Below are positions 979 through 17,257 of a DNA stretch of 21,920 nucleotides, piece after piece (the stretch's first letter is position 1; the number at the start of each line of letters is the position of its first letter). The notes below the pieces were generated by a model, which was not told where the DNA came from, did not search any database, and saw only the letters and a program-made list of their open reading frames with translations. The position numbers and the translations under genes are program-made. This DNA is from a virus, in the IMG/VR virus record IMGVR_UViG_3300030117_002723, positions 1-21,920 of that record. One strand, written 5' to 3'.

Positions 979-3900
979 ATGGCACAAACATATACAAGAC
1001 AAAGTTCTTTTATTGATGGTGATACTATCACCGCAGCATTATTTAATGATGAATATAATCAGTTAGTAAATGCATTTGCATATTCATCTACAAGTGCTAC
1101 TAATACTGGACACAGACACGATGGTACTGCTGGACAAGGTGGTAATATATTTAAAATTGGTGACTTAGACTTTTTAAATAAAGTAGAAATTGATAGCACT
1201 AATAATAGAGTAGGATTTTATGTAGAAGTTTCTTCTGCAGCCGTAGAACAGCTAAGAATACAAGATGGTGCTTTAGTTCCTGTTACAGATAATGATATAG
1301 ATTTAGGAACAAGCTCTTTAGAATTTAAAGATGCTTTCTTTGATGGCACAGTAACTACCGATGCCTTAGTAGCTGATACTGCAGACATTGATGGTGCAAC
1401 TATCGGAGCTAACTCAGCTTCTACTGGTGCATTTACTTCAGTCACTACTACAGGTAATGTTGATGTCGGGGGTAATCTAACAGTTACAGGTACTACTACA
1501 TTTAATGGTGGTACATTAACATTAGGTGATGCAGCAGACGATAATGTAGTCTTTGGTGCAGATGTTAACTCAAACATTATTCCTAATACAGACAATGCAT
1601 ACGATTTAGGAAGTTCTTCTCAAGAGTGGAAAGACTTATATGTTGATGGTATAGCTTATCTAGATGGTATTAATTTTAATGGTACAGCAATTACTTCAAC
1701 TGCTGCTGAACTTAACATTTTAGATGGAGTAACAAGCACTGCAGCAGAATTAAATTTACTTGATGGAGTTACAAGTACAACTGCAGAACTTAATATACTT
1801 GATGGAGTTACATCAAGCACAGCAGAACTTAATATTCTTGATGGTGTTACTTCAACTACAGCCGAACTAAACATTCTTGATGGAGTTACTTCAACTGCAG
1901 CAGAATTAAATATTTTAGACGGTGTTACTAGCACTGCAGCAGAATTAAATATTCTTGACGGAGTTACTTCAACTGCTACAGAATTAAATTTACTTGATGG
2001 GGTTACTGCAACTACAACTGAATTAAACTATGTTGATGTAACTACAGCAGGAACTGTAGAAGCTTCTAAAGCTGTTGTTGCTGATAGTAATGCAGATGTT
2101 TTATTTAGTGATAATGATAAATTAAAATTTGGAACAGATTCAGATTTACAAATCTACCATGATGGTTCTAGTTCTTTTATACAAGATGCAGGTACTGGTG
2201 ATTTAGAAATTAAAGGAGAAAACAATGTCCGAATAAAAACAAATACAGGTGGCGAAAACATGGCTGCTTTTACAGCAAATGGAGCTGTCAGTTTATTTCA
2301 TGATAATTCAGAAAAATTTTCTACAACTTCATCTGGAGTAAATATTACAGGAACAGTTGTCGCAGATGGTTTGACTGTTGATTCTGGAACGACAAACACA
2401 GTTGCTACCTTTACCTCTACTGATGCAGGAGCAGCTATACAACTAACTGATACAACAGGAAATTCAAAGTTAGAGACTTCTGGAGCTAATCTTAGAGTTA
2501 GTGTTGATGACGAAGGAGCTGTGGCTAGTTCAGCAATACAGTTCAGAGTTGATGGCTCTACAAAAGCTACTATAAATGATAGTGGAGTTTTAGATGTTGA
2601 TGGTGGTATTACTGTTGATAACATAACAATAGATGGCACAGAGATAGATTTATCTTCTGGCGACCTAACGCTTGATGTAGCAGGGAATATTGTTCTCAAT
2701 GCTGATGGTGGCGGAATACAGTTCTATGATGATAGTGCTTATATTGGTTCTCTTGGAAACTCAAGTGGGGACTTTTCTATCATGTCCAGAACAGATGATG
2801 AAGATATTGTTTTCAAAGGTATTGATGGTGGTTCAACAATAACTGCCCTTACCCTTGATATGTCTGCAGGAGGAACAGCAAGTTTTAGTCACGATATAGA
2901 AATGGTAGATAACGGACTCTTGCGTATGGGTGCAGGAGGAGACTTGATACTTTCTTCAGACGGAACTAACGGAAGTATATTTGCAAATAATGGAGCTTTA
3001 ATTTTAGATGCTGATAGTGACATTCATCTTGATGCTAATGGTGCTGACATACTATTAAAAGATGGAGGCACTACTTTTGGTGAACTTACAAACTCATCAA
3101 CAGACTTCGTTATCAAATCACACACTTCAGATAAAGACATTATTTTTAAAGGAAATGACGGTGGCTCTGAAATAACTGCCTTAACTTTAGATATGTCTAA
3201 TTCAGGTGCAGCTACATTTAATGGTAATGTAACTATTAATGGTGTAGATGTAACCATTCCTTCAAATATAATTCATGCAGGAGATTCAGATACTTTTTTT
3301 GGATTTAATGATGCAGATACATTTAGAATTGTTACTGGTGGTTCTGAAGCATTAAGAGTAGATTCATCGCAACGAGTTGGAATTGGCACCAGCTCACCTT
3401 CTACAAGTCATAAACTTACTGTTAGTGGCGATACTAAGTTTACTGGTCAGCTATCCATACTTGATAATCAATTAATTAAAATGGGAGATGGTGAGGATTT
3501 TGCTCTTTACCATGACACTACTGTTGGTAATGTAATAAAAAGTGCCACTTCTGATATGGATATTTCAATACTCGGAAATGATGGTGGCTCTACGATTACA
3601 GCTCTTAAATTTGATATGTCTGCTGCAGGTCGTGCAGTATTTAATGCAGGAGCTAATTTTTCTGACCATGTAAATTTTGATGACAATGCTAAAGCAGTGT
3701 TTGGTGGTGGAGATGATTTACAAATTTATCATGACGGCTCTAACTCTATTATTAAAGATGCTGGTACTGGTAACTTACAAATTAATGCAGCTTCTTTTGT
3801 AGTAAATAATGCTGCTAATAGCGCTAGTATAATTGTTGGAGAGGATGGTGGCTCAATTGAGCTATATGAAAATGGCTCTAAAAAAATAGAAACAACTTCA

Positions 3901-5532
3901 AGCGGTGCAACTGTTACAGGTACTTTAGTATCTGATGGCTTAACAGTAGATACATCTACTTTAGTTGTAGATGCTACTAATAATAGAGTAGGTATTGGTA
4001 ATGCTTCTCCAGATGTAAGTTTAGATATAGGAAGCCTTACAGATGCTATTCATGTACCAGTAGGTACTACAGCTCAAAGACCTACTGGAGCTGCAGGTTA
4101 CTTTAGATATAATTCAGAAACCGGTAAATTTGAAGGTTTTACAAATGAATGGGGTGCTATAGCTGGTGGTGGTTCAGGTACAAACATGGATACCAACATC
4201 TTTGCAGGTGATGGTAGTGATACAACCTTTACACTAAGCACAGCACCAGATAGTGAAAATAACTTAATGGTATTTATTGATGGTGTATTTCAAGCTCAAA
4301 ATGTTTACTCAGTATCAGGAACTACACTAACTTTTGCAACTGCTCCGGCTAATGGTAGAGTTATAACAGTCTATCACAGCACAACAACTGTTGGTGGTTC
4401 TAATAACTCAATAGCTACAATGACTGGTGATGGTAGTGATACAACACTAACATTATCTACTGCACCAGTACATGAGAACAACGTATCAGTATTCTTTGAT
4501 GGTGTTTATCAAAGCAAATCAAACTACAGTATATCTGGTACAACTCTTACATTCTCTACAGCACCTCCAAGTGGTGTAGCTGTAGAAGCTATTACTGCAA
4601 CTAATACAAGTATTACAACTGCTACTCAGCTTTCTGATGCAGATGGCGATACACTAATACAGACTGAAGAAAGCTCTGACGAAGATAAAATACGTTTTGA
4701 TACTGGTGGTACTGAACGTATGATTATTGATGACTCTGGAAATGTAGGTATAGGAGAAACTTCACCTTTAGCTACCCTTCACATCAAACAAGGAGATAGT
4801 GGATTAAGCTCACTTAATGCAGCAGCACATCATTTATTTTTAGAAGATACTGGTGCTAATGGACCGGGAATTACTTTAGCATCTGGAACAACTTCTAACT
4901 GTAGTTTGGTTTTTGGTGATTCTGATTCTAATTATCAAGGCTTTATCCTTTATGATAATTCAGCAGATGCCATGAAGTTTGGAACAAATGGTGGTTCAGA
5001 AAGAATGCGAATTCTATCTGGTGGAAATGTTTTATTAAATCAAACAGCTACAGCAGACTCAGGTGTTGCCGATGGAAGATTGGAAATAACCAGAGGTAGT
5101 CAACATTGCATTAACTGTCATGTTACTGGTACAGGTAATTCTACTTTAGTTGCTTTTATAAATGATAATGGTTTTGTCGGTGGTATAAACACTAATGGCT
5201 CTGCTACTGCTTTTAACACATCATCAGACGCTAGATTAAAAAATGTTTTAGGAGAGGCTAAAGGTCTTGAAATTGTAAATGCTTTGAATCCTGTAAACTT
5301 TGAATGGAAAAGTGACGGTAAGATACAAGATGGACTCATAGCACAAGAGGTAGAAAAAGTGTTTCCTGAAGCTGTTTCAGAACCAGAATTAGAGGGAGAG
5401 TGGTATTCAGTGGATTATTCTAAACTGGTAACACCTCTAATAAAAGCTATGCAAGAACAACAAGAACTAATAGAAACTCAACAAACCACTATTAATGATT
5501 TAAAAACTAGAATAGAAACATTAGAAAGTTAA
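979..5532 (+). CDS. Tail fibre with C-terminal intramolecular chaperone (Peptidase_S74)
   Basis: A 1517-residue fibre. The N-terminal part (about 1-60) has an LFNDEYNQLVNAF segment and a GHRHDGT motif (His45, His47) of the kind seen at the virion-attachment end of marine phage fibres. Residues 239-354 are a tandem array of 13-residue units with the core AELNILDGV. The shaft holds repeated motifs: DLQIYHDGS at about 389 and 913; FKG-x-DGGS-x-ITALTLDMS at about 612 and 723, with a diverged copy near 865; and a duplicated GDGSDTT...STAP domain at about 1077-1140 and 1150-1210. From Ser1416 the sequence SDARLKNVLGEAKGLEIVNA followed by GLIAQEVEKVFPEAV is the Peptidase_S74 chaperone. In that family the domain drives trimer folding and is then cut off just before the SD-x-RLK motif. 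The end (about 1480-1517) is a predicted coiled coil. The receptor is unknown. Confidence 0.93.
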   Translation: MAQTYTRQSSFIDGDTITAALFNDEYNQLVNAFAYSSTSATNTGHRHDGTAGQGGNIFKIGDLDFLNKVEIDSTNNRVGFYVEVSSAAVEQLRIQDGALVPVTDNDIDLGTSSLEFKDAFFDGTVTTDALVADTADIDGATIGANSASTGAFTSVTTTGNVDVGGNLTVTGTTTFNGGTLTLGDAADDNVVFGADVNSNIIPNTDNAYDLGSSSQEWKDLYVDGIAYLDGINFNGTAITSTAAELNILDGVTSTAAELNLLDGVTSTTAELNILDGVTSSTAELNILDGVTSTTAELNILDGVTSTAAELNILDGVTSTAAELNILDGVTSTATELNLLDGVTATTTELNYVDVTTAGTVEASKAVVADSNADVLFSDNDKLKFGTDSDLQIYHDGSSSFIQDAGTGDLEIKGENNVRIKTNTGGENMAAFTANGAVSLFHDNSEKFSTTSSGVNITGTVVADGLTVDSGTTNTVATFTSTDAGAAIQLTDTTGNSKLETSGANLRVSVDDEGAVASSAIQFRVDGSTKATINDSGVLDVDGGITVDNITIDGTEIDLSSGDLTLDVAGNIVLNADGGGIQFYDDSAYIGSLGNSSGDFSIMSRTDDEDIVFKGIDGGSTITALTLDMSAGGTASFSHDIEMVDNGLLRMGAGGDLILSSDGTNGSIFANNGALILDADSDIHLDANGADILLKDGGTTFGELTNSSTDFVIKSHTSDKDIIFKGNDGGSEITALTLDMSNSGAATFNGNVTINGVDVTIPSNIIHAGDSDTFFGFNDADTFRIVTGGSEALRVDSSQRVGIGTSSPSTSHKLTVSGDTKFTGQLSILDNQLIKMGDGEDFALYHDTTVGNVIKSATSDMDISILGNDGGSTITALKFDMSAAGRAVFNAGANFSDHVNFDDNAKAVFGGGDDLQIYHDGSNSIIKDAGTGNLQINAASFVVNNAANSASIIVGEDGGSIELYENGSKKIETTSSGATVTGTLVSDGLTVDTSTLVVDATNNRVGIGNASPDVSLDIGSLTDAIHVPVGTTAQRPTGAAGYFRYNSETGKFEGFTNEWGAIAGGGSGTNMDTNIFAGDGSDTTFTLSTAPDSENNLMVFIDGVFQAQNVYSVSGTTLTFATAPANGRVITVYHSTTTVGGSNNSIATMTGDGSDTTLTLSTAPVHENNVSVFFDGVYQSKSNYSISGTTLTFSTAPPSGVAVEAITATNTSITTATQLSDADGDTLIQTEESSDEDKIRFDTGGTERMIIDDSGNVGIGETSPLATLHIKQGDSGLSSLNAAAHHLFLEDTGANGPGITLASGTTSNCSLVFGDSDSNYQGFILYDNSADAMKFGTNGGSERMRILSGGNVLLNQTATADSGVADGRLEITRGSQHCINCHVTGTGNSTLVAFINDNGFVGGINTNGSATAFNTSSDARLKNVLGEAKGLEIVNALNPVNFEWKSDGKIQDGLIAQEVEKVFPEAVSEPELEGEWYSVDYSKLVTPLIKAMQEQQELIETQQTTINDLKTRIETLES
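1693..2040 (+). repeat. Tandem 39-bp coding repeat (LDGV units) in the fibre
   Basis: Eight consecutive 39-base units encode variants of TSTAAELNILDGV, followed by a ninth, shortened and diverged unit (TATTTELNYVDV, 2005-2040). Units begin at 1693, 1732, 1771, 1810, 1849, 1888, 1927 and 1966. The protein repeat is almost invariant, while the DNA differs at many third positions (GAT/GAC, GGA/GGT/GGG, TTA/CTT), so the array is old or has been selected at the protein level. Such arrays probably form repetitive beta structure in the fibre shaft. Confidence 0.9.
4207..4600 (+). repeat. Duplicated beta domain in the fibre
   Basis: Two copies of a domain of about 60 residues. Both begin GDGSDTT-[FL]-TLSTAP and continue with EN-x(2)-[MV]-x-F-[IF]-DGV-[FY]-Q, a tyrosine, SxSGTTLTF and a second AP motif. 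The first copy begins at 4207 and the second at 4426. This points to an internal duplication; similar beta domains are common in marine phage fibres. Confidence 0.8.
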
Positions 5533-5781: not shown

Positions 5782-7866
5782 ATGAGTAATAAAAATAAAA
5801 ACAGAAGAGCTGGTATTAGCTCTGTACGTCAAGACTATCGTTCTGGTGGTCTAGTATCCAAAGAAGGTAATCGACTTAAAGCATTTCAAGGTTATGCTGA
5901 ACCATATCTTGATATTGAAGATTTTAGATTTGGAATCGGCACTCCCGGTTTACCTATACCCGGTTTACCCGGTGGAGGAGGTGGCGGAGGCAGTAATGAC
6001 TCTAACAACAATGAAACATTTACAGGAGACGTACCAATGTCAGAAGATGTAGAAGCAACTAGAAAAAAATTAGAAGAACAAGCAGCAGGAAAAGGCACTG
6101 TATTACCTAAACCTGATTTTAAAACTGTAGAAGAAGCAGTAGGTAAGGATGCTGTTGAAGCTGGAAATATAAAAGCTGGTACTGGAGATATTACACAAAC
6201 TATTGAAGCTCAAGAATTTACTGCTGCAGCTCCAAGAAAAGAAAATGTAGTCGAAGCTACTACTGCACCGGCAGTCGAAGCTCCTGTTGTTGCTCCTACT
6301 GCAACTATGACTGCTGCAACTACTACTGCTGCAGACGTAACAGCAGCTAAAGGAGAAGTAAGTGATGCTGCTCAAGTCGGAGAAGTAGATATAGAAAAAA
6401 TAACTCCTATTGAGGGAGTTAATGTTACTCCAGTAGAAGGAGCTGTTGCTAAAAGAGTTGTAGCTCAAATGTCTCCAGATGCAGTTGCTCAAGCTGCAGA
6501 AGTTAGCGGTTTAGATGTTAGAAGAGTTACTAGAGCAAAAGAAGAATTACGAACAGCCGGTGTAGATGATTTAACAATTGCACAATTAGGTAATGACCCT
6601 AAAGCTCTTGAAGCGGAGTTAATGAATTTAACTGACGAGCAAAGAGGTTTAGTAGAAGGATTACCTCAAGAAGCTTTAGTAAGTAATCAAATGGATGCCT
6701 TACTAAAAGGTATTGAAGATGGTTCAATTCCTGCATGGGCAAGACCAGCAGTTGCAGCAGTTGACCAAGCATTAGCCGCTAGAGGTTTAGAAGCTTCAAC
6801 AGTTGGTAGGGATGCATTATTAAATACTATTATTAGAAATGCATTACCACTAGCCCAACAAAATGCTCAAGCTATTCAAGCTAGTATAGCTCAAGAAAGA
6901 GGCATTGAAGCTCAAGTAGCGATAGAAGAAGCTAGGTTTTCGCAACAAACTGCATTACAAAATGCTAATAATGTTTTTCAATTAAACTTAGCTCAGTTTA
7001 GTGCTGACCAACAACGAGAAATAGCAAATAGTAAATTTTTACAAACTGTCTCATTAACAAATGCTAATAATGACCAACAAGCAGCTATTCAGAATGCAGT
7101 TTTATTATCGCAAGTAAATTTAGCTCAAGCAAATATTGACCAACAAAGACAAGTTACGAATGCTAAAGCATTTTTGTCAATGGACCTTGCTAATTTAACT
7201 AACGAGCAACAAGCTAACATTTTAACTGCTCAACAACAGCAACAAGTTTTATTGAGTAATCAAGCAGCAGAAAATGCAGCAAGACAGTTTAATGCTACAA
7301 GTGAAAATCAAAGAAATCAGTTTATGGCAACTTTGGCTGTTGATGTAAGTAAATTTAATGCAAATCAAATGAATTTAATTAGTCAGTTTAATGCCACACA
7401 AAAGAATGCTGCAGAAGCTAGAAATGTTCAAAGAGAAATAGATGTAGAAAAATTTAATACAACAACAAGAAATCAAATAGAGCAATTTAATACAGCTATT
7501 GAAAGTAATAGAGCAGAATTTAATGCAAAAAATGCAATGGTTATTGCTCAATCAAACGCTGCATGGCGAAGACAAATAAATACTGCAGATACTGCTGCAG
7601 CTAATGCTGCTACTGAAATTGCTGCAAAACAAGCTTTTGATTTAACAGCTCAAGCTCAAGCAAATCTATGGCAAGACATGAGAGACCAAGCAGGTTATTT
7701 ATATGATAAAAGCTTACAAGACCAGAACATCGCTGCAAAATTAACTGCAGAGTTTTTAGCTGGTCAGTATACAGACAACAAAGCACTGTCAAATAGTTTT
7801 AAGGTAATGAAAGATATGATTGCAAACTTAACAGGTTTTTCAGTAAGCAATACCTTAAATGTATAA
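5782..7866 (+). CDS. Gln/Asn-rich virion structural protein
   Basis: A 694-residue protein beginning 5 bases after the previous gene. The basic N-terminus (1-40) is followed by a Pro/Gly linker (about 55-70) containing seven glycines in a row, then an Ala/Thr/Glu-rich low-complexity region (about 80-225). A helical part (about 225-350) follows. From about 350 to 650 there is a long Gln/Asn/Ala-rich helical region with spaced NANN and QFNAT-like motifs (LAQFSADQQ, RQFNATSENQ, SQFNATQKN, EQFNTAIESN, AEFNAKNAM). The regular spacing of Phe-Asn pairs suggests a long repetitive helical or coiled-coil rod. No signal peptide or transmembrane segment is present. Its place between the fibre and the ejection proteins makes it a likely virion component, but the exact position in the particle is not known. 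Confidence 0.75.
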   Translation: MSNKNKNRRAGISSVRQDYRSGGLVSKEGNRLKAFQGYAEPYLDIEDFRFGIGTPGLPIPGLPGGGGGGGSNDSNNNETFTGDVPMSEDVEATRKKLEEQAAGKGTVLPKPDFKTVEEAVGKDAVEAGNIKAGTGDITQTIEAQEFTAAAPRKENVVEATTAPAVEAPVVAPTATMTAATTTAADVTAAKGEVSDAAQVGEVDIEKITPIEGVNVTPVEGAVAKRVVAQMSPDAVAQAAEVSGLDVRRVTRAKEELRTAGVDDLTIAQLGNDPKALEAELMNLTDEQRGLVEGLPQEALVSNQMDALLKGIEDGSIPAWARPAVAAVDQALAARGLEASTVGRDALLNTIIRNALPLAQQNAQAIQASIAQERGIEAQVAIEEARFSQQTALQNANNVFQLNLAQFSADQQREIANSKFLQTVSLTNANNDQQAAIQNAVLLSQVNLAQANIDQQRQVTNAKAFLSMDLANLTNEQQANILTAQQQQQVLLSNQAAENAARQFNATSENQRNQFMATLAVDVSKFNANQMNLISQFNATQKNAAEARNVQREIDVEKFNTTTRNQIEQFNTAIESNRAEFNAKNAMVIAQSNAAWRRQINTADTAAANAATEIAAKQAFDLTAQAQANLWQDMRDQAGYLYDKSLQDQNIAAKLTAEFLAGQYTDNKALSNSFKVMKDMIANLTGFSVSNTLNV

Positions 7867-7908
7867 ATATGAAAATTTTAAAAATAATAACAAAGCAAAG
7901 TAAATTGT

Positions 7909-7914
7909 AGGAGG
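7909..7914 (+). promoter_or_regulatory. Strong Shine-Dalgarno (AGGAGG) that fixes the start of the next gene
   Basis: A perfect AGGAGG stands 9 bases before ATA 7924. No ATG, GTG or TTG in the reading frame of the gene ending at 8907 occurs between the upstream in-frame stop (7888-7890) and ATG 8044. The site is 129 bases before that ATG, too far to serve it. Confidence 0.7.
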
Positions 7915-7923
7915 TGCGACTTC

Positions 7924-8907
7924 ATAAAGAAAATATTTAAAGGAATAGGAAAAGCCGTTAAAAAGGTTGTTAAAGGTGTTAAGAAAGTTGTTAAAAAAGT
8001 AGCTAGAGGAATTAAAAAACTTGCTAAAAACAAGTTTGTCCGTATGGCTGCTTTAATAACTGCTGGTATCTTTCTGCCCCCGGTGTTTATGGCAGGTGGA
8101 GCTGCCGGATTAACTTTAGGTAGTGTAGCAGCAGGTGCTTTATCTGGTGCTGTAGCTTCTGGTGGATTAAGTATTTTAGCTGGAGAAAAACCTAAAGACT
8201 TCTTAAAGTCTGCAGCTTTAGGTGCTGCAATGGGTGCTCTTGGTGGTAAATTACAACAAGGTAAATTTGAAGCTAAAGCTTTTGCAAGAGATGCGAAACT
8301 TGTGGCTGGAGGTCAAACTGCGACAGCAACTGTACCTGTATCAGGTTCTCCCGGAACATTTACTCCCGCAACTGCTGCTGATTATGCTGTAGGTTCTGCT
8401 AATTATAATACATTAGCTCAATCATATGGGGCTACTATAGTTGATGGTACACCAGTGTTTAGTGGTGGTTTTACACCCACTTTGAATGAAGCAGGAACTG
8501 CTGTTACTGGTACTGAAAGACTTGTTGCAGGAAGTTCGTTAGCTCAGAGTGCTGCTAATGAAGGAATAACTGCTTCAAGTAAATTTGGTGATTATGCAAC
8601 TCAAGCAGCTATTAGTGCCGGTGTCAACACAGGTATGAATCTTTTGACAACTCAAATTACTCAAGAAGACCCACCGGTTAAATTTGGTGGCAGTGCTGGG
8701 CAGTATTATCAAGGTGTTCGAAATGCTGTAGCAAACCTAACTAGAAATTATATTTCTTCTGGAAGTCCTTCAGGGGATAGTACAGCAGCAATATATGCTA
8801 GTATGGCTAATAACCTAAGTTATGGAACTGGTAGTATTGATTATAATCAACATGCTAGTCTTGGATTAATGAGAGGTATTAACGTTCCAAGCTTACAATA
8901 CACGTAA
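7924..8907 (+). CDS. Cationic membrane-active internal/ejection-type protein, probable ATA start
   Basis: With ATA 7924 as start the protein has 327 residues; from the first ATG (8044) it would have 287. The extra 40 residues are clearly coding: KKIFKGIGKAVKKVV and its continuation have 15 Lys and 2 Arg, no acidic residue, and the hydrophobic spacing of an amphipathic helix. Right after it comes a Gly/Ala-rich hydrophobic region (about 41-75, ITAGIFLPPVFMAGG), a second small-residue stretch (about 93-105, AALGAAMGALGG) and then a polar Ser/Thr/Gly-rich remainder. A cationic helix plus a hydrophobic hairpin, located upstream of large internal proteins, fits a membrane-inserting ejection protein analogous in place to T7 gp14. 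That is inferred from layout, not from recognised homology. The 57-base gap before it is among the largest in the + block. Confidence 0.72.
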   Translation: MKKIFKGIGKAVKKVVKGVKKVVKKVARGIKKLAKNKFVRMAALITAGIFLPPVFMAGGAAGLTLGSVAAGALSGAVASGGLSILAGEKPKDFLKSAALGAAMGALGGKLQQGKFEAKAFARDAKLVAGGQTATATVPVSGSPGTFTPATAADYAVGSANYNTLAQSYGATIVDGTPVFSGGFTPTLNEAGTAVTGTERLVAGSSLAQSAANEGITASSKFGDYATQAAISAGVNTGMNLLTTQITQEDPPVKFGGSAGQYYQGVRNAVANLTRNYISSGSPSGDSTAAIYASMANNLSYGTGSIDYNQHASLGLMRGINVPSLQYT

Positions 8908-8911
8908 TATT

Positions 8912-9715
8912 ATGGCAGAAGAAAAGAAAATAAGACCGATAATAGCTACCTCGCCTAGTGAGGCAGCTTTACAGACTATTGATGAATTGAATGCTAAAGA
9001 TATTTCACTTGAGGAATTTTTAGGTCCTGATTTAGCTAAAACTATTGATGAACCTAAAGTTCCTTTAAGTGAAAAATCTAGCGAAGTTAATCAGTCTGAA
9101 AACTTAGAAGAAATTGTTAAACACTTATCAGATAAACAAGAAGTGCCCGGGAGTTCATTAACAAGAAGTCCAGACACTGCTTTTCCTTGGGAAAGCCCTC
9201 CAACATTTGCTAGTCCGAGAGAAGCTCAAGATGCTATGTTTGGCATGTTGTCTACCCCCGAAGTAACTGAAAATATTTTAAAAGGTTTAAGTATGGGAAT
9301 GCCTGTTACAGATTTAACAAGTATTTTAGTATTTAAAGGTTTTATTGATGGAGCTTATAATCCAGATGTAGCTTTACTTATTAGTGAGCCAGTAGCATTT
9401 TTTATTATGGCTTTAGGAGAAAAAGCTAATATTGATTACAAAATAGAAAGCGATGACTCAGACTTAGATGACTTAGAGAGAACTTCAATAGACGATAGAG
9501 CTTTAGAAGAACTTGAAAAAGCTGGTGGCATTGGACAGATTCAAAAAGCTATAAAAGAAAAAGAAGTATCAAAACGTAATATTCCAGTAGATATTGTTAA
9601 AGAAGTAGAACAACGAGTAACACCAAGTTTACTAGCACCTTCTACAGATACGACAGTTGAAGCAGAACCAGAACAAACAGAAGATAAAACAGAAAGTTTA
9701 TTAAGTAGGACATAA
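8912..9715 (+). CDS. Conserved phage structural-module protein, function unknown
   Basis: A 267-residue acidic protein starting 4 bases after the preceding stop. The polar N-terminus (about 1-78) leads into a compact core (about 78-175) with PGSSLTRSPDTAFPWESPP, then a helical part containing AMFGMLSTPEVTENILKGL and a hydrophobic stretch LLISEPVAFFIMALGEKANI. The C-terminus (about 180-267) is Glu/Asp/Lys-rich and probably disordered. The core gives the impression of a conserved domain met in structural modules of marine phages, but I cannot name a family. It is likely a minor virion or assembly protein, judged from its neighbours only. Confidence 0.68.
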   Translation: MAEEKKIRPIIATSPSEAALQTIDELNAKDISLEEFLGPDLAKTIDEPKVPLSEKSSEVNQSENLEEIVKHLSDKQEVPGSSLTRSPDTAFPWESPPTFASPREAQDAMFGMLSTPEVTENILKGLSMGMPVTDLTSILVFKGFIDGAYNPDVALLISEPVAFFIMALGEKANIDYKIESDDSDLDDLERTSIDDRALEELEKAGGIGQIQKAIKEKEVSKRNIPVDIVKEVEQRVTPSLLAPSTDTTVEAEPEQTEDKTESLLSRT

Positions 9716-9717
9716 TC

Positions 9718-11553
9718 ATGGCAGAAGATAAAGAATTAAATCTAGACTCGTTGTTAGCAGCAAAGCAATACGAAACATCATCTAGAAAAAAAAGAGAAGA
9801 TAAACAATACATTAAAGAAGTTGTAGCTGATTTCGGTAGTAGATTTATGAGTTCTTTATTAATTGACCAACCGGCTGCTTTACGTAAAGACTATATACAA
9901 GCTAATTTACAAGATGCTAAATTCCAAGCAGCTATTGAAAGAGAAAAAATAAAACATAAAACAGCTTATGTAGCAGAAAGAAAAGAAGACTTAGATTTTG
10001 TTAACTCATTTTCTAATCCAGATATTGGATTTTATAAGTTAGCAGAAAAAAACTTTTTAGCTAGTGAAGAAGGTAAAAAATATATTGAGTTAGGTGCAGA
10101 TGATGCTTATTTAGATTTTCCTACAGAAGTTACTGACAGTATTATAAAAAGTAAAAAAGATTTTTTAACAAGTGAAGGTGAAAGACTAAAGAATTTATAT
10201 CAACCATATATTGATAACCCTGATTTAATTATTGAACAATTAACTGCTCCAGACAGATTAAGTAGACAAGTAAGAGATTCATTGTATGCTAAGACTTATG
10301 CAGATGCAGAGGCTCAGTTTGGAACTTTTAATTTTATTAAAAATTTATTTGGAGCAAACGTTGCTACACATTCTAGATATGCTTATTTACAAGATGAAAT
10401 TGAAGCAAGAATAGAAGCTGAAACTCAAAAAATTAAAGAGATAGCAGACTTTAATACTTTTGCTAATGGTAAAAAAGCAAGTGAGACAACATTAACTTCT
10501 CCGTTTGCATTAGGAGCTTCGTACAAAAACAGATTTACTAAAATGAATACTGCTTTTAAAGATATGAGTACAAAAAATGCTCAACAAAGAGCTAAAGAAC
10601 TTTTTACAGTACCACCAAAAAGAATACTGGTACTAGAAGACTCAGCTCAAGCAGATGGAGAGTTAATCTCTGGTGCTTTATTAACATCTGAACAAAGAAC
10701 TAAACTTAGAGAAGATAATAAAACTAATCAGTTACCGCAAAACATATTTTTTGAATCAACTACTCCGGGTTATATTTATGGAACATATGATGGAGATGAG
10801 TTAAGAAAACGTAAAAGTGTAGAGTTAGGTCTTAATCCTGATTTAGACCCAACACAACAAGTTAAAGTTAGGGCAAAGACTGTAGACAAAGATGGTAATA
10901 TTCGTTTTGTAGAACAAAATATTGGTCTGAATGAAGCTTTAATAGCAGACGTTACTTTAGGAGCAGAATTTTTTAGACATAAAGATTTAACAGAAACTAA
11001 GGATATGACCCTAGTTCAACAGAATGATGTTGGCTTTAATTACGAAAGACAATATGTAAAATTCTTAGTAGAGTCTGGTAATATCTGGTATGACCGTAAT
11101 GGAGTATTACATTATGACCGACCTTCATTAGCTAGAGATTTAACTCAAGCCAATGATGTCTCTAAAGGTTTTAATGAAGCAGATGTTATAAATGCTAGAT
11201 TAATGAGTCAATTAGACAAAGAATCTTTAACAACTGAAGACTTTTTTAATCAAAGTATTGATATAAAAATTAACACTATTAGAAATTCTAATATGCCACC
11301 AGATTTACTAGAAGAAAAACTTGGTCAACTTGAAAATTTAAATACCGAAAAAGATAAACAACAAGAGTTTTTAATTAATCTTGTTATGCCACCAAAAGAT
11401 TTAAGAGGCACAATTGTAAAATATAGTAATCATTATTTCTCAGCCGGTGAATTAACTGATGCACAAAAAGAAGCCTTATACAATCGTTTTATAATGGACT
11501 TTAATGACAATGAAGACTTTCCATTATTAAAAACTATTTTTCAAATTAAATGA
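9718..11553 (+). CDS. Large helical internal virion protein (gp15-like position)
   Basis: A 611-residue, charged, mostly helical protein starting 2 bases after the previous stop and overlapping the next gene by 4 bases (ATGA). There is no signal peptide or clear transmembrane segment. The N-terminal third is Lys/Glu/Ala-rich (KFQAAIEREKIKHKTAY); a region near 200-220 contains FGTFNFIKNLFGANV; the middle (about 330-400) looks more beta-rich. It sits between the putative membrane-active protein and the 1331-residue lysozyme-bearing protein, the slot occupied by the middle ejection protein (gp15) of T7. The role as part of the DNA-ejection conduit is inferred from order and size; no sequence motif proves it. 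Confidence 0.65.
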   Translation: MAEDKELNLDSLLAAKQYETSSRKKREDKQYIKEVVADFGSRFMSSLLIDQPAALRKDYIQANLQDAKFQAAIEREKIKHKTAYVAERKEDLDFVNSFSNPDIGFYKLAEKNFLASEEGKKYIELGADDAYLDFPTEVTDSIIKSKKDFLTSEGERLKNLYQPYIDNPDLIIEQLTAPDRLSRQVRDSLYAKTYADAEAQFGTFNFIKNLFGANVATHSRYAYLQDEIEARIEAETQKIKEIADFNTFANGKKASETTLTSPFALGASYKNRFTKMNTAFKDMSTKNAQQRAKELFTVPPKRILVLEDSAQADGELISGALLTSEQRTKLREDNKTNQLPQNIFFESTTPGYIYGTYDGDELRKRKSVELGLNPDLDPTQQVKVRAKTVDKDGNIRFVEQNIGLNEALIADVTLGAEFFRHKDLTETKDMTLVQQNDVGFNYERQYVKFLVESGNIWYDRNGVLHYDRPSLARDLTQANDVSKGFNEADVINARLMSQLDKESLTTEDFFNQSIDIKINTIRNSNMPPDLLEEKLGQLENLNTEKDKQQEFLINLVMPPKDLRGTIVKYSNHYFSAGELTDAQKEALYNRFIMDFNDNEDFPLLKTIFQIK

Positions 11554-14500
11554 ACAGATACACTATAGAAGAACCTGATTTTTTTTCTATTGCTGAAACT
11601 CCTACTTCTGAAGAAGTTAAAGAAGAAAAAATAGCAATAGATAATAAACCATACAGATATAGAATTGACGACAGGGCAGACATTGATTTATTCGGCTCTA
11701 ATGTAAAATCAAAACCTCGTCAAACTTTTCAAAGCGTATATGAGTTTGAAAATGATGAAGATGTTTTAAAAGATTGGGATATTGTTGCTAATGCTATTAA
11801 TGAAAATGGCGAAGGTATAGCTGAGACTTTAAGAGACACAGACTTTAATTTAACATCAGCTATGGTAAGAGCTGGTCAAACAAATCAATTTACTCAGCAA
11901 GAAAAAGATGCTTACAATCGATTACGAACTAAATTTGCTAATACAAAATTAAAAGGCTTTTACGAATATTTTGAATTAATAGGTAATGCAACTGTTGATA
12001 CTGTACTCGACCCCTTTACCTTAGTAGCTTTAGTAGCAGCCCCTTTTACTGGAGGAACTTCTTTAGCAGCCAAACAAGCAGCAGCTACAGCAGTTTTACA
12101 AGGTTCGAAAAGATATGCATTAGCTAAATCTATTCAAGCAACAGCAACTAAACCTGTTACTTATACAACTCTTGAAGGAGCAGCTTGGAATGGACTTCAC
12201 AACTATTACAATCAAGATATAGATGTTGATTTAGGTAATCGAGACAATATTGATTGGAAAGAAGTTGGAACATCTTCAGCAATAGGAGGAGGAGTTGGTC
12301 TTGGTCTTGGAGCTGGTGTTGGCTTATATAGTGGAGCAAAATATTATAATAGATTGCAACGTTATCATAATGAAGATTCGATTTTAAAATATATAGATGG
12401 TTTAGATAAAGAAGCTGTTAAAAGTGTAGACGAAGTTACCGGAGCTAACAAAAAGTTTTATGAAGGCAAAAAAAGTATTGGAGGTAAAACAGCTTCAGAG
12501 TGGGTAGATTATACAATATCTAGATTACCTATGTTTGGTAAAGCTACCACTGAATTTTTATCTTTAGCAAAAGGTGCAGACAGTGTTAAAGATTTTATTT
12601 TAAAACTTAGATACGATGGCACAAGAACTATCTTTGGTACAAAACAAGCTGGTGATTCAGTTGGAGCATTATCTTATTTTGAAAATTTAGCAAACTATAA
12701 TGGTAAATATGCTGGTATAGGTATTAATCGAGCATTTAATCATATTGGTTATGGTCCGGGAAGAAAATTAACTGCTAAAGATAATAATGCTTTACATCAA
12801 TTAATGTTAGATGATAACACTAAAAAGTTTATACATACTGATGGTGTTGAATATGACATACCTAAAGAAGTACAAGAAGCTTATTTTGGTAAAAAAGAAA
12901 TAGGTTTAGTAGGTATCAAAGATATTATGGATGATATTTTTGAAGAGGGAGTTAAATTAGGCGAGTTTACTCCGGGTCAAAAAGTTCTTAATTATTTTCC
13001 AAGAGTATTTAATTACGGAGCACTTTCTAAAAATCAACCTAGATTTAAAAAATTATTAAAGAAATACGGTACAACCGATGAAACTACTGGAAAGTTTACT
13101 CCTTATGCTGCTACCGATGCAGATGCCGATGCAATTGTAAAAGACATGTTAGACTTGAGATATAGTCAATTTGATGTTAAACCAAAAGGCAGTGGTACTA
13201 GAAGCTTTCAACAACATCGAGTATTTAGTGAAATACCTGATGAAGAGTTAGGTTTCTTTTTAGATAACACTGGCAGCTCTTTTGTTAGCAATAATGTGAT
13301 GGAAGTTCTAAGTGAGTACGTAGGCAGTGTTGCACAATTATATGCTCGTAAAAAAACTTTTGGAGTTAGAAATATAGAACAGTTTGAAAATACTACATTA
13401 AAAAATATTAAAGACGAATTAAAACTGTTAGGTGCAAGTGATGAACAAATAGCTACTACTGCTAATGGAATTACAAAGTTATTTGGAGAAGTTACAGGAC
13501 TATCTGGAAAAGGATTAGCACCCGAAGGACCATTAGGCAGAGCTGCAAACATTGCTTCTGAATCTGTTAGATTACTTCAACAAGCTGCTCACTTAACCTT
13601 TGCAGTGCCTTCAAGTATTACTGAGCCTTTATTAATGTTTCAAAGAGTTGGGCTTAGAGATTATCCTAGAGTAGTGCATAATATTGCTCAAGGTATTTGG
13701 AAAGAAATAACAAAAAATACTGACCAACTTTATCAACTAGGTAAAGCTAGACTAGGACTAGGTAAAGCTAAGTTCAAAGATTTAGATGATGAATACTGGC
13801 AAGAATTATATGCTGGTGGAATGGCTATTGAAAACAATATTCTTGAAGGTTTAGATAGATTAGCAAGTGGTGAAAGATTTTATAATAAAGGTTTAAGGGC
13901 TACTTCTGATGCCTTTTTTAAAATGAATTTATTAACACAGTGGACTAGAGCTGTGCAAGGTGCAGCCTTTACTTCCGGAAAACTTTTAATTAGAAGAAAC
14001 CTACAAAAACTTTACGACCACAAATTAGGAGTTGCAAAATTAACTGAAGGTGACTTTAGAGGTCTAGGTATGAACAAAAAAGAATACTTAGAAAAGCAAC
14101 TACAAGAGTTAGGTATTGACCCTGAAGAAGGCATGGCTTGGTATCGAAGTTCATTAGATGACAATTTAGACTTTAATGTAAATAAATCTGAGCAATCTCC
14201 TTTTTATAAAGAAAAGTATTTAGAAGGGGCTAAGAGATTTACTAATGAAACTATTTTAAACCCTAATAGAGCAGCAGCAGCTAAATCAATATTAATGCAA
14301 AGTGGTTGGGGTAAACTTGCATTTCAATTTATGAGTTACCCAACTTTATTTAATAATGTAGTAATAAAAAGAATGTTAAATGAACTTAGAGAATATCCAG
14401 TGCAGACTTCACCTAAACTTTTAATTACAGGATTTTTAATGACTTCTATTGCTATGCAAATGAATTTACTTAGGAATCCAGAAAGACATACTAAAATGTC

Positions 14501-15545
14501 TGATGAAGAAAATATTTTAGAAGCAGCAGAAAGATGGGGTGCGTTAGCTCAAGGTTCAATGGTTAAAAGAACTGCAGAGGCTGCTAAATACGGTTCAGGA
14601 TTTACAGGCTCTTTAACAAGAGGAGTCTTTGGTCCATCTGTAGGTGATGCTTTAGATTCTATTGAATATAAATTAGGTCCAACTTCTATTGTTGCTCGAA
14701 ATGTACCTTTTTCGCAAGTTATAAAAAGATTAGAACCAGAAAAATATAAAGAGTTTCAAACATGGGCTAAAGAAATGGATGAAAGTTATTTTGGTTTAAT
14801 TGATGATGAAACTTCTTATCAAGAATATAGCTCATATAGAACAGGAGGTTTAGTAACAAATGTGCCTAATGCTTCTCCAGAACCAGAAAAAAGAGTTAAT
14901 AAAATGACTGGTGTGCCTTATGATATTGAAGCTGGTCCATCAGCACAGCCAGAAAAAACCAGAGCAGGTTTGAGTGAGGAAGGTAAGTTACTAGCTACAT
15001 TAGCTCGTAGACAAAAGCTTAGTGAAGGAGGACAACCTCAAAGTTATCAAGATATTTTGTTTAATTTTATCGCACAAGCCGAAGATGCTAAATTATATGA
15101 ACGTATGTTAAAAGGAGAAAATCCTGAATTAACAGCATATTTACCAACTCCCAATGATGTACAGACTATTGGGTTTGGTAGAACTAGAGGTGTAACTAAA
15201 GACACAAAAAGCACTTTAGAAGAAGAAAAAAATAAATTAAGAGAAGAACTTGAATTATTTGAAAGAGAAACAATTAAGAGTATTGGTCAAAAAAGATTTG
15301 ATAGTTTAAATAATAATCAAAAAGCAGCAGTAGTAAGTTTAATTTTTAATGTTGGTCGAAGTGCATTTGATGGAACAAACGCACAAAAAGCAATAAAAGC
15401 TGGAGATTTGGATACATTTATGAAAGAAGCATTTGACCCGCAACTAGGCTTTACAAAACAAAGAAATGCTGATGGACAACTAGAAATTTTAGAAGGCTTA
15501 CAAAATAGAAGACAAGCAGAGAAAGATTTATTTTTAAGAAACTAA
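11550..15545 (+). CDS. Giant internal/ejection protein with C-terminal GH24-like lysozyme domain
   Basis: A 1331-residue protein, the size of the largest internal proteins of podoviruses (T7 gp16 class). Hydrophobic or glycine-rich segments occur at about 150-180 (FTLVALVAAPF), 242-265 (AIGGGVGLGLGAGVGLYSG), 922-935 (LAFQFMSYPTLFNN) and 957-974. The last 160 residues resemble a T4-lysozyme-like GH24 muramidase: candidate catalytic Glu1178 in FIAQAED, then AYLPTPNDVQTIGFGRTRGV (TIGFG at 1206-1210), then SLNNNQKAAVVSLIFNVG (1252-1269), AIKAGD and GLQNRRQAEKDLF at the end. It would cut peptidoglycan while DNA crosses the envelope, or at lysis. T7 gp16 carries its lytic transglycosylase at the N-terminus, so the C-terminal location here differs. 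Translation is coupled to the upstream gene through ATGA and to the downstream gene through TAATG. Confidence 0.85.
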   Translation: MNRYTIEEPDFFSIAETPTSEEVKEEKIAIDNKPYRYRIDDRADIDLFGSNVKSKPRQTFQSVYEFENDEDVLKDWDIVANAINENGEGIAETLRDTDFNLTSAMVRAGQTNQFTQQEKDAYNRLRTKFANTKLKGFYEYFELIGNATVDTVLDPFTLVALVAAPFTGGTSLAAKQAAATAVLQGSKRYALAKSIQATATKPVTYTTLEGAAWNGLHNYYNQDIDVDLGNRDNIDWKEVGTSSAIGGGVGLGLGAGVGLYSGAKYYNRLQRYHNEDSILKYIDGLDKEAVKSVDEVTGANKKFYEGKKSIGGKTASEWVDYTISRLPMFGKATTEFLSLAKGADSVKDFILKLRYDGTRTIFGTKQAGDSVGALSYFENLANYNGKYAGIGINRAFNHIGYGPGRKLTAKDNNALHQLMLDDNTKKFIHTDGVEYDIPKEVQEAYFGKKEIGLVGIKDIMDDIFEEGVKLGEFTPGQKVLNYFPRVFNYGALSKNQPRFKKLLKKYGTTDETTGKFTPYAATDADADAIVKDMLDLRYSQFDVKPKGSGTRSFQQHRVFSEIPDEELGFFLDNTGSSFVSNNVMEVLSEYVGSVAQLYARKKTFGVRNIEQFENTTLKNIKDELKLLGASDEQIATTANGITKLFGEVTGLSGKGLAPEGPLGRAANIASESVRLLQQAAHLTFAVPSSITEPLLMFQRVGLRDYPRVVHNIAQGIWKEITKNTDQLYQLGKARLGLGKAKFKDLDDEYWQELYAGGMAIENNILEGLDRLASGERFYNKGLRATSDAFFKMNLLTQWTRAVQGAAFTSGKLLIRRNLQKLYDHKLGVAKLTEGDFRGLGMNKKEYLEKQLQELGIDPEEGMAWYRSSLDDNLDFNVNKSEQSPFYKEKYLEGAKRFTNETILNPNRAAAAKSILMQSGWGKLAFQFMSYPTLFNNVVIKRMLNELREYPVQTSPKLLITGFLMTSIAMQMNLLRNPERHTKMSDEENILEAAERWGALAQGSMVKRTAEAAKYGSGFTGSLTRGVFGPSVGDALDSIEYKLGPTSIVARNVPFSQVIKRLEPEKYKEFQTWAKEMDESYFGLIDDETSYQEYSSYRTGGLVTNVPNASPEPEKRVNKMTGVPYDIEAGPSAQPEKTRAGLSEEGKLLATLARRQKLSEGGQPQSYQDILFNFIAQAEDAKLYERMLKGENPELTAYLPTPNDVQTIGFGRTRGVTKDTKSTLEEEKNKLREELELFERETIKSIGQKRFDSLNNNQKAAVVSLIFNVGRSAFDGTNAQKAIKAGDLDTFMKEAFDPQLGFTKQRNADGQLEILEGLQNRRQAEKDLFLRN

Positions 15546-15787
15546 TGTTATTGTATACAGAAAAACAACTAGATAGAGCTTATCAGATAGACTGTAAAGC
15601 TCGTACTCGCAACAATACTCCTTGGATAAAGAGAGAAGAGTTTAGAGATATTTACGAAGATTTGATGGAAATCTATATGTTGCAGTTAGACAAACATCAT
15701 GCATTAGACCCTGATGCTCCAGATTTTATTTTAGATTCATTGAACGAAATAATAGGACAAAGTTTGCATTTTGAACCGGAGGATTAA
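15545..15787 (+). CDS. Small acidic protein in the lysis segment, unknown function
   Basis: An 80-residue protein whose ATG overlaps the preceding stop and whose stop overlaps the next ATG (TAATG on both sides), so its translation depends on its neighbours. It is helical and charged (EEFRDIYEDLMEIYMLQLD), with a basic N-terminal third and an acidic end (HFEPED). There is no transmembrane segment or cysteine motif. It lies between the lysozyme-bearing protein and the holin candidate, so a role in lysis timing or virion completion is possible. I do not recognise the family. Confidence 0.78.
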   Translation: MLLYTEKQLDRAYQIDCKARTRNNTPWIKREEFRDIYEDLMEIYMLQLDKHHALDPDAPDFILDSLNEIIGQSLHFEPED

Positions 15788-16221
15788 TGGGTTTTCCGTT
15801 TGAGATTATAACAATGCTAGGCTCTACCGTATTGGGTGGGGTCATGAGTATATGGGCAGAGAATAGAAAAGCTAAAGCCGAAGAACAAAGACTTCTTATT
15901 ACAAGAGGCGAGTTTGAAATGAAAGCAGTAAAAGCTGCTAGAGATAATAAAGATGTAGGCTTTCAATGGACTCGTAGAATTATCGCACTAACTGCAGTTT
16001 TTGCAATTATTGTTTTACCTAAACTTGTAGCAATATTTGCTCCAGATGTTTTAGTAACTGTTGGGTATACACAATTTAAACCCGGATTTTTATTTTTTAC
16101 TAAAGATGTAGAAATATTTAAATGGGTTACATTTGAAGGATTAGTAATTACGCAGTTAGATACTAATTTAGTATCAGCTATTATAGGAATGTATTTTGGT
16201 GGGAGTCTAGTCAAGAAATAA
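15787..16221 (+). CDS. Holin-like membrane protein (three-segment type)
   Basis: A 144-residue protein. Segment 1 is at about 5-23 (FEIITMLGSTVLGGVMSIW), followed by a charged helix (about 25-60) rich in Lys, Arg and Glu. Segment 2 is at about 64-86 (IIALTAVFAIIVLPKLVAIF), preceded by GFQWTRR. A weaker third hydrophobic stretch near 126-141 (NLVSAIIGMYFGGS) ends in a short Lys tail. This layout resembles the three-segment holin family of gene transfer agents and some alphaproteobacterial phages, in which a Trp-Arg motif precedes the second segment. It would permeabilise the inner membrane at lysis. The start overlaps the upstream stop (TAATG). Another small membrane protein with no lysis role is the alternative. 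Confidence 0.65.
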   Translation: MGFPFEIITMLGSTVLGGVMSIWAENRKAKAEEQRLLITRGEFEMKAVKAARDNKDVGFQWTRRIIALTAVFAIIVLPKLVAIFAPDVLVTVGYTQFKPGFLFFTKDVEIFKWVTFEGLVITQLDTNLVSAIIGMYFGGSLVKK

Positions 16222-16234
16222 AAAAGGAGTAAAA

Positions 16235-17257
16235 ATGAAAAGAGGGCTAATTGTTGGGGCGATATTATTATTTGCATTAAATGTGCAATCAGACCAGACA
16301 GGGGACTGTACTGCTGGTACGCAATATTGTGAGCAAAATAGTTTAAATACCACGAATACTACTACTACAAATAATACTAACACAAATACTAATACCAATA
16401 ATAATACTAATACCAACACAAATACCAATACTAATACTAATACTAACACTAATAATAATACGAATGTAAATACAAATACTTCTACAAATACAAATGTAAA
16501 TACAAATACGTCAACAAATACTAATAATAATAATAACGTAAATACTAATACTAATACTTCTACTTCTAATTCAACTGTTAATTCAACAGTTAATCAAAAC
16601 GTTAATAACAACAACACTAGTAATTCGACAAATACTAATAATAATACAAACACTAATAATACGACATCTGATAATACTAATAAAAATTACAATGAATCTA
16701 ATTCAAACTCAAATGTAAATACTAATAATACAAACACTAATAATTCTACAGCTAATAATACTAATAATAATTATAATAAATCAGAGTCTACACAAACAAT
16801 AAATCAAAATATAAATCAAAAAGCTCCTCCAGCTTCTGCAATTGCACCAAGTATTATGTCTTACTCACAAGACCTTTGTACTACTGGAGTTTCTGGAGCT
16901 TTTCAAGGTCAAATATTTGGTTTTTCTGGTGGTAAAGCAGTACGAGATGAAAACTGTGAAAGGTTAAAACTTTCAAAATATTTATATGATACTGGCATGA
17001 AAGTAGCAGCAGTGTCTATTCTTTGTCAAGACCCTAGAGTATTTAAAGCTATGGGAAATGCTGGAACTCCTTGTCCATACAAAGGTAAAATAGGAGACGA
17101 AGCTAAAGTTGCTTGGGCAGCAAACGTAGAAGAAACTCCAACATACAAAGAAGATTTAAAAAATTACATTGCTAAGTGTAAAAAAACTAAAAATCCAAAA
17201 GGTATAAAAAAATCTGGTAGCACTTGTCGTAAAGAATTTCATGCACAAAGTAGCTAG
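16235..17257 (+). CDS. Exported Asn/Thr-repeat protein with C-terminal six-cysteine domain
   Basis: A 340-residue protein with its own ribosome site (AAGGAG, 16224-16229) 5 bases before the ATG. Residues 1-19 are a signal peptide (MKRGLIVGAILLFALNVQS, likely cut after Ser19). A short mature start holds Cys25 and Cys32. Residues 38-181 are nearly pure Asn/Thr with some Ser and Val (NTNTNTNTN runs). A Pro-Ala linker follows at about 199-206. The C-terminal domain (about 208-340) has six cysteines (215, 241, 264, 280, 315, 331), with the motif CERLKLSKYLYDTGMKVAA followed by ILCQDPRVFKAMG. Eight cysteines in total suit disulphides in the periplasm or outside the cell. The function is unknown. 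The stop overlaps the GTG of the next gene (TAGTG), so the two exported proteins are probably made together. Confidence 0.82.
   Translation: MKRGLIVGAILLFALNVQSDQTGDCTAGTQYCEQNSLNTTNTTTTNNTNTNTNTNNNTNTNTNTNTNTNTNTNNNTNVNTNTSTNTNVNTNTSTNTNNNNNVNTNTNTSTSNSTVNSTVNQNVNNNNTSNSTNTNNNTNTNNTTSDNTNKNYNESNSNSNVNTNNTNTNNSTANNTNNNYNKSESTQTINQNINQKAPPASAIAPSIMSYSQDLCTTGVSGAFQGQIFGFSGGKAVRDENCERLKLSKYLYDTGMKVAAVSILCQDPRVFKAMGNAGTPCPYKGKIGDEAKVAWAANVEETPTYKEDLKNYIAKCKKTKNPKGIKKSGSTCRKEFHAQSS
16346..16777 (+). repeat. Asn/Thr codon repeat, almost free of G on the + strand
   Basis: This 432-base tract encodes residues 38-181 of the exported protein. It is built mainly from AAY and ACN codons (AATACT-like hexamers), with short islands encoding Val, Ser, Lys, Tyr or Asp. 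All four Thr codons and both Asn codons are mixed, so runs of identical hexamers stay short. The + strand is markedly poor in G across the tract. Confidence 0.9.

Follow-up and report, generated by a model that had tools for sequence, protein, structure and literature searches.

The gene at positions 7921–8907 of the viral sequence studied here (328 codons and a stop; plus strand, as are its parts and the neighboring genes at 5782–7866, 8912–9715, and 11550–15545) probably starts at UUC 7921–7923, with initiation enabled by an extended Shine–Dalgarno (SD) sequence and held low by weak pairing; comparison of related sequences favors this reading. The window, that is, the whole stretch of DNA analyzed, is the 21,920-base IMG/VR virus record IMGVR_UViG_3300030117_002723. 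At this gene, the SD and the TTC are conserved, a standard start codon is absent, the N-terminal helix is selected as protein, and a strong SD accompanies the missing ATG.

Source and genomic context

BLAST matches and gene order group the window with the HMO-2011-type marine podoviruses; comparison phages were the Pelagibacter phages HTVC103P, HTVC104P, and HTVC115P, the Roseobacter CRP phages, and HMO-2011. The homologous genes on either side are ordered as in the isolates: upstream, a gene for a 694-aa, Ala/Gln-rich protein (5782–7866), in the same order in HMO-2011-type phages; downstream, a gene (8912–9715) that served as bait for relatives and as the basis of the tree described below. 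Contigs of this group have a G+C content of 0.32–0.34, similar to values for SAR11-linked subgroups in PMC9038755; on this basis, SAR11 would be a guess at the host.

The tail-fibre genes of the window (979–5532) and of a distant relative, L006 (4993–9075), look nearly identical at their ends and differ in the middle, and the leaders of both the tail-fibre gene and the 694-aa gene are identical between the two (16 of 16 nt). This pattern of sequence identity suggests recombination in this region, where the downstream neighbors are only about 40–50% alike. Elsewhere in the window, positions 16235–17257 encode a 340-aa protein that begins like a signal peptide and carries a long repeat of Asn and Thr (NTNTN...). 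The 715-aa protein of positions 17257–19404, whose start is also signal-like, has a Glu/Asp-rich stretch and a Ser/Thr/Asn-rich region and looks exported or surface-exposed.

Structure of the start region

The open frame spans 7891–8907. A preliminary description of this DNA had placed a perfect AGGAGG nine bases before ATA 7924, taken as the probable start, and had found no standard start in the stretch. This is correct: AGGAGG occupies 7909–7914, the nine bases are 7915–7923, the ATA is 7924–7926, and ATG, GTG, and TTG are absent before ATG 8044; what was missed is that AGGAGG belongs to an extended SD, AGGAGGTG (7909–7916), and that, after the spacer CGAC (7917–7920), a conserved TTC (7921–7923) stands before the ATA, 6 nt from AGGAGG. 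The ATA is then codon 2, and the first in-frame ATG is codon 42 (counting TTC as 1), at the head of a hydrophobic Gly/Ala-rich segment (8044–8187). AGGAGG alone is not rare in the window (10 occurrences vs. 5.4 expected); the longer AGGAGGTGCGACTTCATA is unique there even with three mismatches allowed (0 expected). A 13-codon mini-ORF (MKILKIITKQSKL) occupies 7869–7910, its TAG overlapping the SD; it is not a general feature, as its ATG is missing in L003.

Distribution among relatives

Eighty loci were fetched from viral contigs using the downstream gene as bait. An ATG stands before the Lys-rich helix in 52 of these, a TTC in 18, and a TTG in one (L035); four have no upstream ORF, and five are truncated where the contig ends. 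Scanning viral contigs for the motif returned 78 stretches, 18 of which are this gene and 60 unrelated, and added two contigs (L164 and L169). A second bait search yielded 79 loci, 75 of which were examined, the other four lying on contigs already examined. No further TTC- or TTG-type member appeared among these 75 (57 flagged as ATG, 13 as basic before the first ATG, three without an ORF, two cut); the 13 flagged as basic comprise nine known members, two GTG starts, and two false flags with ATG.

In total, the form without ATG occurs in 22 contigs (the window and 21 further IMG/VR contigs) representing 17 distinct gene sequences. The start position reads TTC in 16 of these, TTG in one, and ATG in none, and the next standard in-frame start falls at codon 35–97. 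Protein identity to the window is 91% and 86% for L002 and L003, respectively, and 39% for the distant L006; TAGGAGGTGCGACTTCATAAAGAAA is identical in all four. Because the window and L006 also have identical leaders at two other genes, this pair alone proves little, and the case rests on the comparison of seven lineages. A tblastn search with three proteins recovered no TTC form in named isolates, and the bacterial genome contigs searched gave no match.

A search of eight contigs for long reading frames with no start close by picked out this gene in all eight; the other frames flagged have the look of spurious or contig-edge ORFs, with one possible exception on G018 (3300046171_000140). There, an ORF on the minus strand (15207–16322, reverse coordinates) begins without a start codon; it resembles a piece of a ribonucleotide reductase large subunit, possibly reflecting an intron, an intein, or a split gene.

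Conservation at the start

Seven divergent lineages, not including the TTG row L035, were aligned from −30 to +23. The invariant positions are AGGAGGTG (−12 to −5), TTC (0 to +2), and single A's at +5, +9, and +20. The spacer varies among members (CGAC, TGAC, or TATT), and AGGAGGTG is present in 16 of the 17 distinct sequences, L035 having AGGAGGTT instead. Of 20 contigs, 18 contain the pattern AGGAGGTKYGACTT exactly once; it is missing from those of L036 and L044, in which the spacer is TATT and the TTC is still present. In the contigs scanned, the pattern occurs at this gene alone.

No ATG stands at the gene's start in the 22 contigs, whereas the ATG of other relatives aligns with the TTC: FGFIKK in L036 and L044 and LGFLKK in L035 correspond to MGFLRK or MGLFKS. 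The codons are TTC GGA TTT ATT AAA AAA in L036 (with GGG in L044) and TTG GGA TTC TTA AAG AAA in L035. In nine contigs, Phe codons are TTT in 90–95% of cases and TTC in 5–10% (233 TTT and 17 TTC in the window); despite this preference, the proposed start codon is never TTT. With so strong a bias, retention of TTC in all lineages would be rare for an ordinary Phe codon. A single codon separates an in-frame stop from AGG AGG in L034, L035, L036, L042, and L164, which rules out a start further upstream.

In the tree built from the downstream protein, L034 (TTC with AGGAGGTG) and L035 (TTG with AGGAGGTT) are nearest neighbors. The distribution of ATG and non-ATG forms on this tree implies at least two changes, with long branches leaving the deeper placement of L045, L046, and L164 unsure.

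Shine–Dalgarno strength and RNA folding

Pairing energies were predicted with an E. coli-type 16S tail, which may not be the anti-SD of the hosts. Under this assumption, the 15 TTC rows tested all score −13.9 to −14.2 kcal/mol, and the TTG row L035 has a weaker site at −11.4 kcal/mol. The ATG relatives (43 distinct) have a mean of −5.7 kcal/mol, with AGGAGG in one and AGGAGGTG in none. In six contigs, the SD of this gene is the strongest or second strongest, equaled by at most one other gene when ordinary genes are scored by their best candidate site. Pairing of the spacer with another part of the 16S rRNA was considered and dropped, as members with TGTATT do not fit.

The SD may also pair with the UUC in a small GGAG/CUUC hairpin (7910–7923; −3.5 kcal/mol), which could itself explain the conservation of TTC. 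On this reading, the TTC is kept as part of a translational operator or switch, and initiation occurs at some ill-defined nearby codon. The hairpin reaches −3.5 to −4.1 kcal/mol in nine of the 12 members folded, is kept in the TGYGAC types, and has a fold z-score of −2.0 as a 19-mer. However, it is nearly lost in L036, L044, and L035; in the first two, where its energy is down to −0.4 kcal/mol, TTC is retained. Moreover, 56-nt segments show no stability beyond that of shuffles (z = −0.23, −0.10, and +0.16), and the start codon itself would stay unexplained. The window contains no Rfam match to a known RNA element. The retention of TTC without the hairpin in these two sequences favors the codon reading and does not settle the question; we consider conservation for the hairpin unlikely.

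Alternative start codons and initiators

Initiation at AUA 7924 could apply within the window's subgroup if each subgroup uses its own weak codon at that place. AUA matches the fMet anticodon more closely than UUC does, and PMC13009471 gives AUA as the start of S. aureus infC, ccpN, and citZ, with an extended SD for infC and ccpN. Within this gene family, ATA is kept just in the window, L002, L003, and L006. In other members with the same leader, however, the position reads TTA, TTT, GGA, GGG, or AAA, of which AAA and GGA are not near-cognate, while the codon preceding it is TTC in 16 of the 17 distinct sequences. AUA thus fails as a general start, and its use in one subgroup appears quite unlikely.

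UUC might instead be read by a dedicated initiator, such as a phage or host tRNA with a Phe-type anticodon, or with the help of a phage factor that disables IF3 discrimination. Either would fit the third-position C being kept against the strong TTT preference. ARAGORN, however, detected tRNA genes neither in the window nor in the full contigs G001, G003, G005, G008, and G018, a result that argues against a special initiator carried by the phage but does not bear on one from the host, and the pattern is found at this gene alone in each contig. We regard a dedicated initiator as distinctly improbable.

Alternatively, the upstream gene could supply the start through frameshift, readthrough, or bypass. 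Its stop TAG overlaps or abuts TAGGAGG in L006, L034–L042, and L164, which would leave a ribosome nearby. Yet the frame and distance of the upstream stop vary (in the window, it is in frame with TTC and 54 nt before it), the stop is doubled in L006 and L043, and the upstream sequence of L045–L048 is unrelated, all of which make this route very improbable. A +1 frameshift from the GTG within AGGAGGTG was also rejected: L035 has no such GTG, and TGA directly follows the GTG in L034, L042, and L046.

The cationic helix and the encoded protein

The 40 codons at 7924–8043 had been described as a Lys-rich amphipathic helix without acidic residues, followed by a hydrophobic segment, and the present analysis bears this out. 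The stretch has 17 K/R and no D/E, and its mean hydrophobic moment (18-residue windows) is 0.80 vs. 0.28 for shuffles, with none of 2000 as high. Of 9156 open 40-codon stretches in the window, nine, which may include the helix itself, have at least 15 K/R and no acidic residue. The hydrophobic segment directly follows Met 8044.

Repeats make the alignment of the helix stretch uncertain; with this limit, dN/dS is 0.11–0.28 in eight of the 17 pairs, including those with the highest dS but one (e.g., 0.11 for L006–L034, 0.15 for L006–L043, 0.17 for L043–L044, and 0.28 for L006–window). Six pairs give 0.42–0.86, one (L045–L164) gives 1.17, and two are undefined; these nine carry little information or point in the opposite direction. 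Between many members, most substitutions in the helix are synonymous; it is under purifying selection and evolves as protein between distant members, and it is part of the product, as the preliminary description had assumed.

A similar cationic N-terminal helix lies behind an ordinary ATG in relatives and in the isolates HTVC103P (gp58), HTVC104P (gp60), HTVC115P (gp45), and Slicky01 (WGH49920), where the Lys-rich gene holds the same place between homologous genes, either adjacent to them or separated by a few small genes. The site preceding the ATG is AGGAGG in Slicky01 and shorter in the three pelagiphages. In HTVC115P, gp46 (L004 6735–7184), annotated as a toxin-activating lysine-acyltransferase, directly precedes the Lys-rich gene, an arrangement that makes acylation of the Lys-rich protein conceivable.

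Translation from Met 8044, leaving the Lys-rich stretch untranslated, would accord with the ATG kept there in the window, L002, and L003. However, L006 has no Met at this position (its first ATG is codon 94), the first ATG of L043 is codon 220, no SD precedes 8044, and the helix both evolves as protein and recurs behind ATG in relatives and isolates; a start at Met 8044 is therefore extremely improbable. A sequencing error or a G-to-A mutation at an ATG, which had also been suggested, has a negligible chance of being correct: the leader is common to independent contigs from different metagenomes, and all 21 further contigs agree in having no ATG, which excludes sequence error.

The protein of 7921–8907 matched no PHROG or Pfam family, those of ejection proteins included. 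The AlphaFold2 model is poor (mean pLDDT 40.7), with the helix present in this low-confidence model. Three genes downstream lies a gene for a 1331-aa protein with an endolysin-like C-terminal region (11550–15545), a context that fits an ejection module; from these neighbor genes, we infer a role as an ejection protein.

Comparison with known initiation systems

The closest parallel appears to be Streptomyces sigR, which, according to PMC5472188, has the same AGGAGGTG, an inner GTG wrongly annotated as the start, and a real start at GTC that is repressed by IF3; the codon is conserved across species, with GTT in two of 34 genomes. The two genes have in common the eight-base SD with its misleading internal GTG, an NTC codon that is not a normal start, and rare variation of this codon. 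In the phage gene, the codon is likewise conserved across seven lineages, a standard start is absent in 16 of the 17 distinct sequences (with TTG in the 17th), and an unusually strong SD stands at a working distance (6 nt). The two differ in the codon (GTC vs. TTC) and in its distance from AGGAGG, which is 8 nt in sigR, taking GGT CCG as preceding GTC, vs. 6 nt here. Furthermore, sigR encodes a bacterial sigma factor and is backed by evidence from protein and IF3 experiments, whereas the evidence for the phage gene comes from sequence.

S. aureus infC, ccpN, cvfC1, and citZ likewise combine a weak start with low output and, in three of them, an extended SD; in poor medium, their AUA and AUU starts gave about 10% of the output seen with AUG (PMC13009471). 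Unlike UUC, these are near-cognates of AUG, and their use was shown by ribosome profiling and reporters in the same account. UUC itself has been studied in an artificial setting, with the same codon in the P site and initiator tRNA: PMC7907450 reports no initiation complexes on UUC without drug when all factors are present, for which IF3 is held responsible, and 70S complexes forming at AUG-like rates without IF3. These analogies indicate that UUC initiation is possible and would be expected to be weak. The literature searched, with subscription journals mostly outside it, names no natural UUC or TTC start; PMC7907450 is in vitro only.

Proposed mechanism and significance

Under the preferred UUC reading, the eight-base SD AGGAGGUG, 6 nt upstream of UUC (from AGGAGG), would hold the 30S subunit, and ordinary fMet-tRNA would initiate on UUC. 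That UUC pairs with the fMet anticodon at the middle base alone counts against this reading; since only this base pair is shared, output would be low, and it would likely be sensitive to IF3. The predicted product has 328 residues, with an N-terminal Met or formyl-Met followed by IKKIFKGIGKAVKK..., the cationic amphipathic helix, and then the hydrophobic Gly/Ala-rich segment. This protein is probably membrane-active and belongs to the ejection module in low copy, and low output would suit a basic protein of this kind; keeping the product low, a purpose the preliminary description had attached to ATA, is the likely purpose of the start codon choice here as well. There is also a small chance of a bolder version, in which a natural, long-conserved UUC start is specifically read, through infection-altered IF3 fidelity or another initiator of the host, and the gene is on only late in infection.

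These sequence comparisons suggest that a group of ocean phages begins a protein at a codon that laboratories treat as a non-start. Gene finders, which assume ATG, GTG, or TTG, would cut 34–96 residues from this protein or overlook where it really begins. Confirmation of UUC would extend natural start codons beyond near-cognates and would bring the rescue of very weak starts by an extended SD, as in sigR and S. aureus, to viruses. ATG, TTG, and TTC at one position, each with matching SD strength, also form a natural series on the initiation needs of the ribosome.
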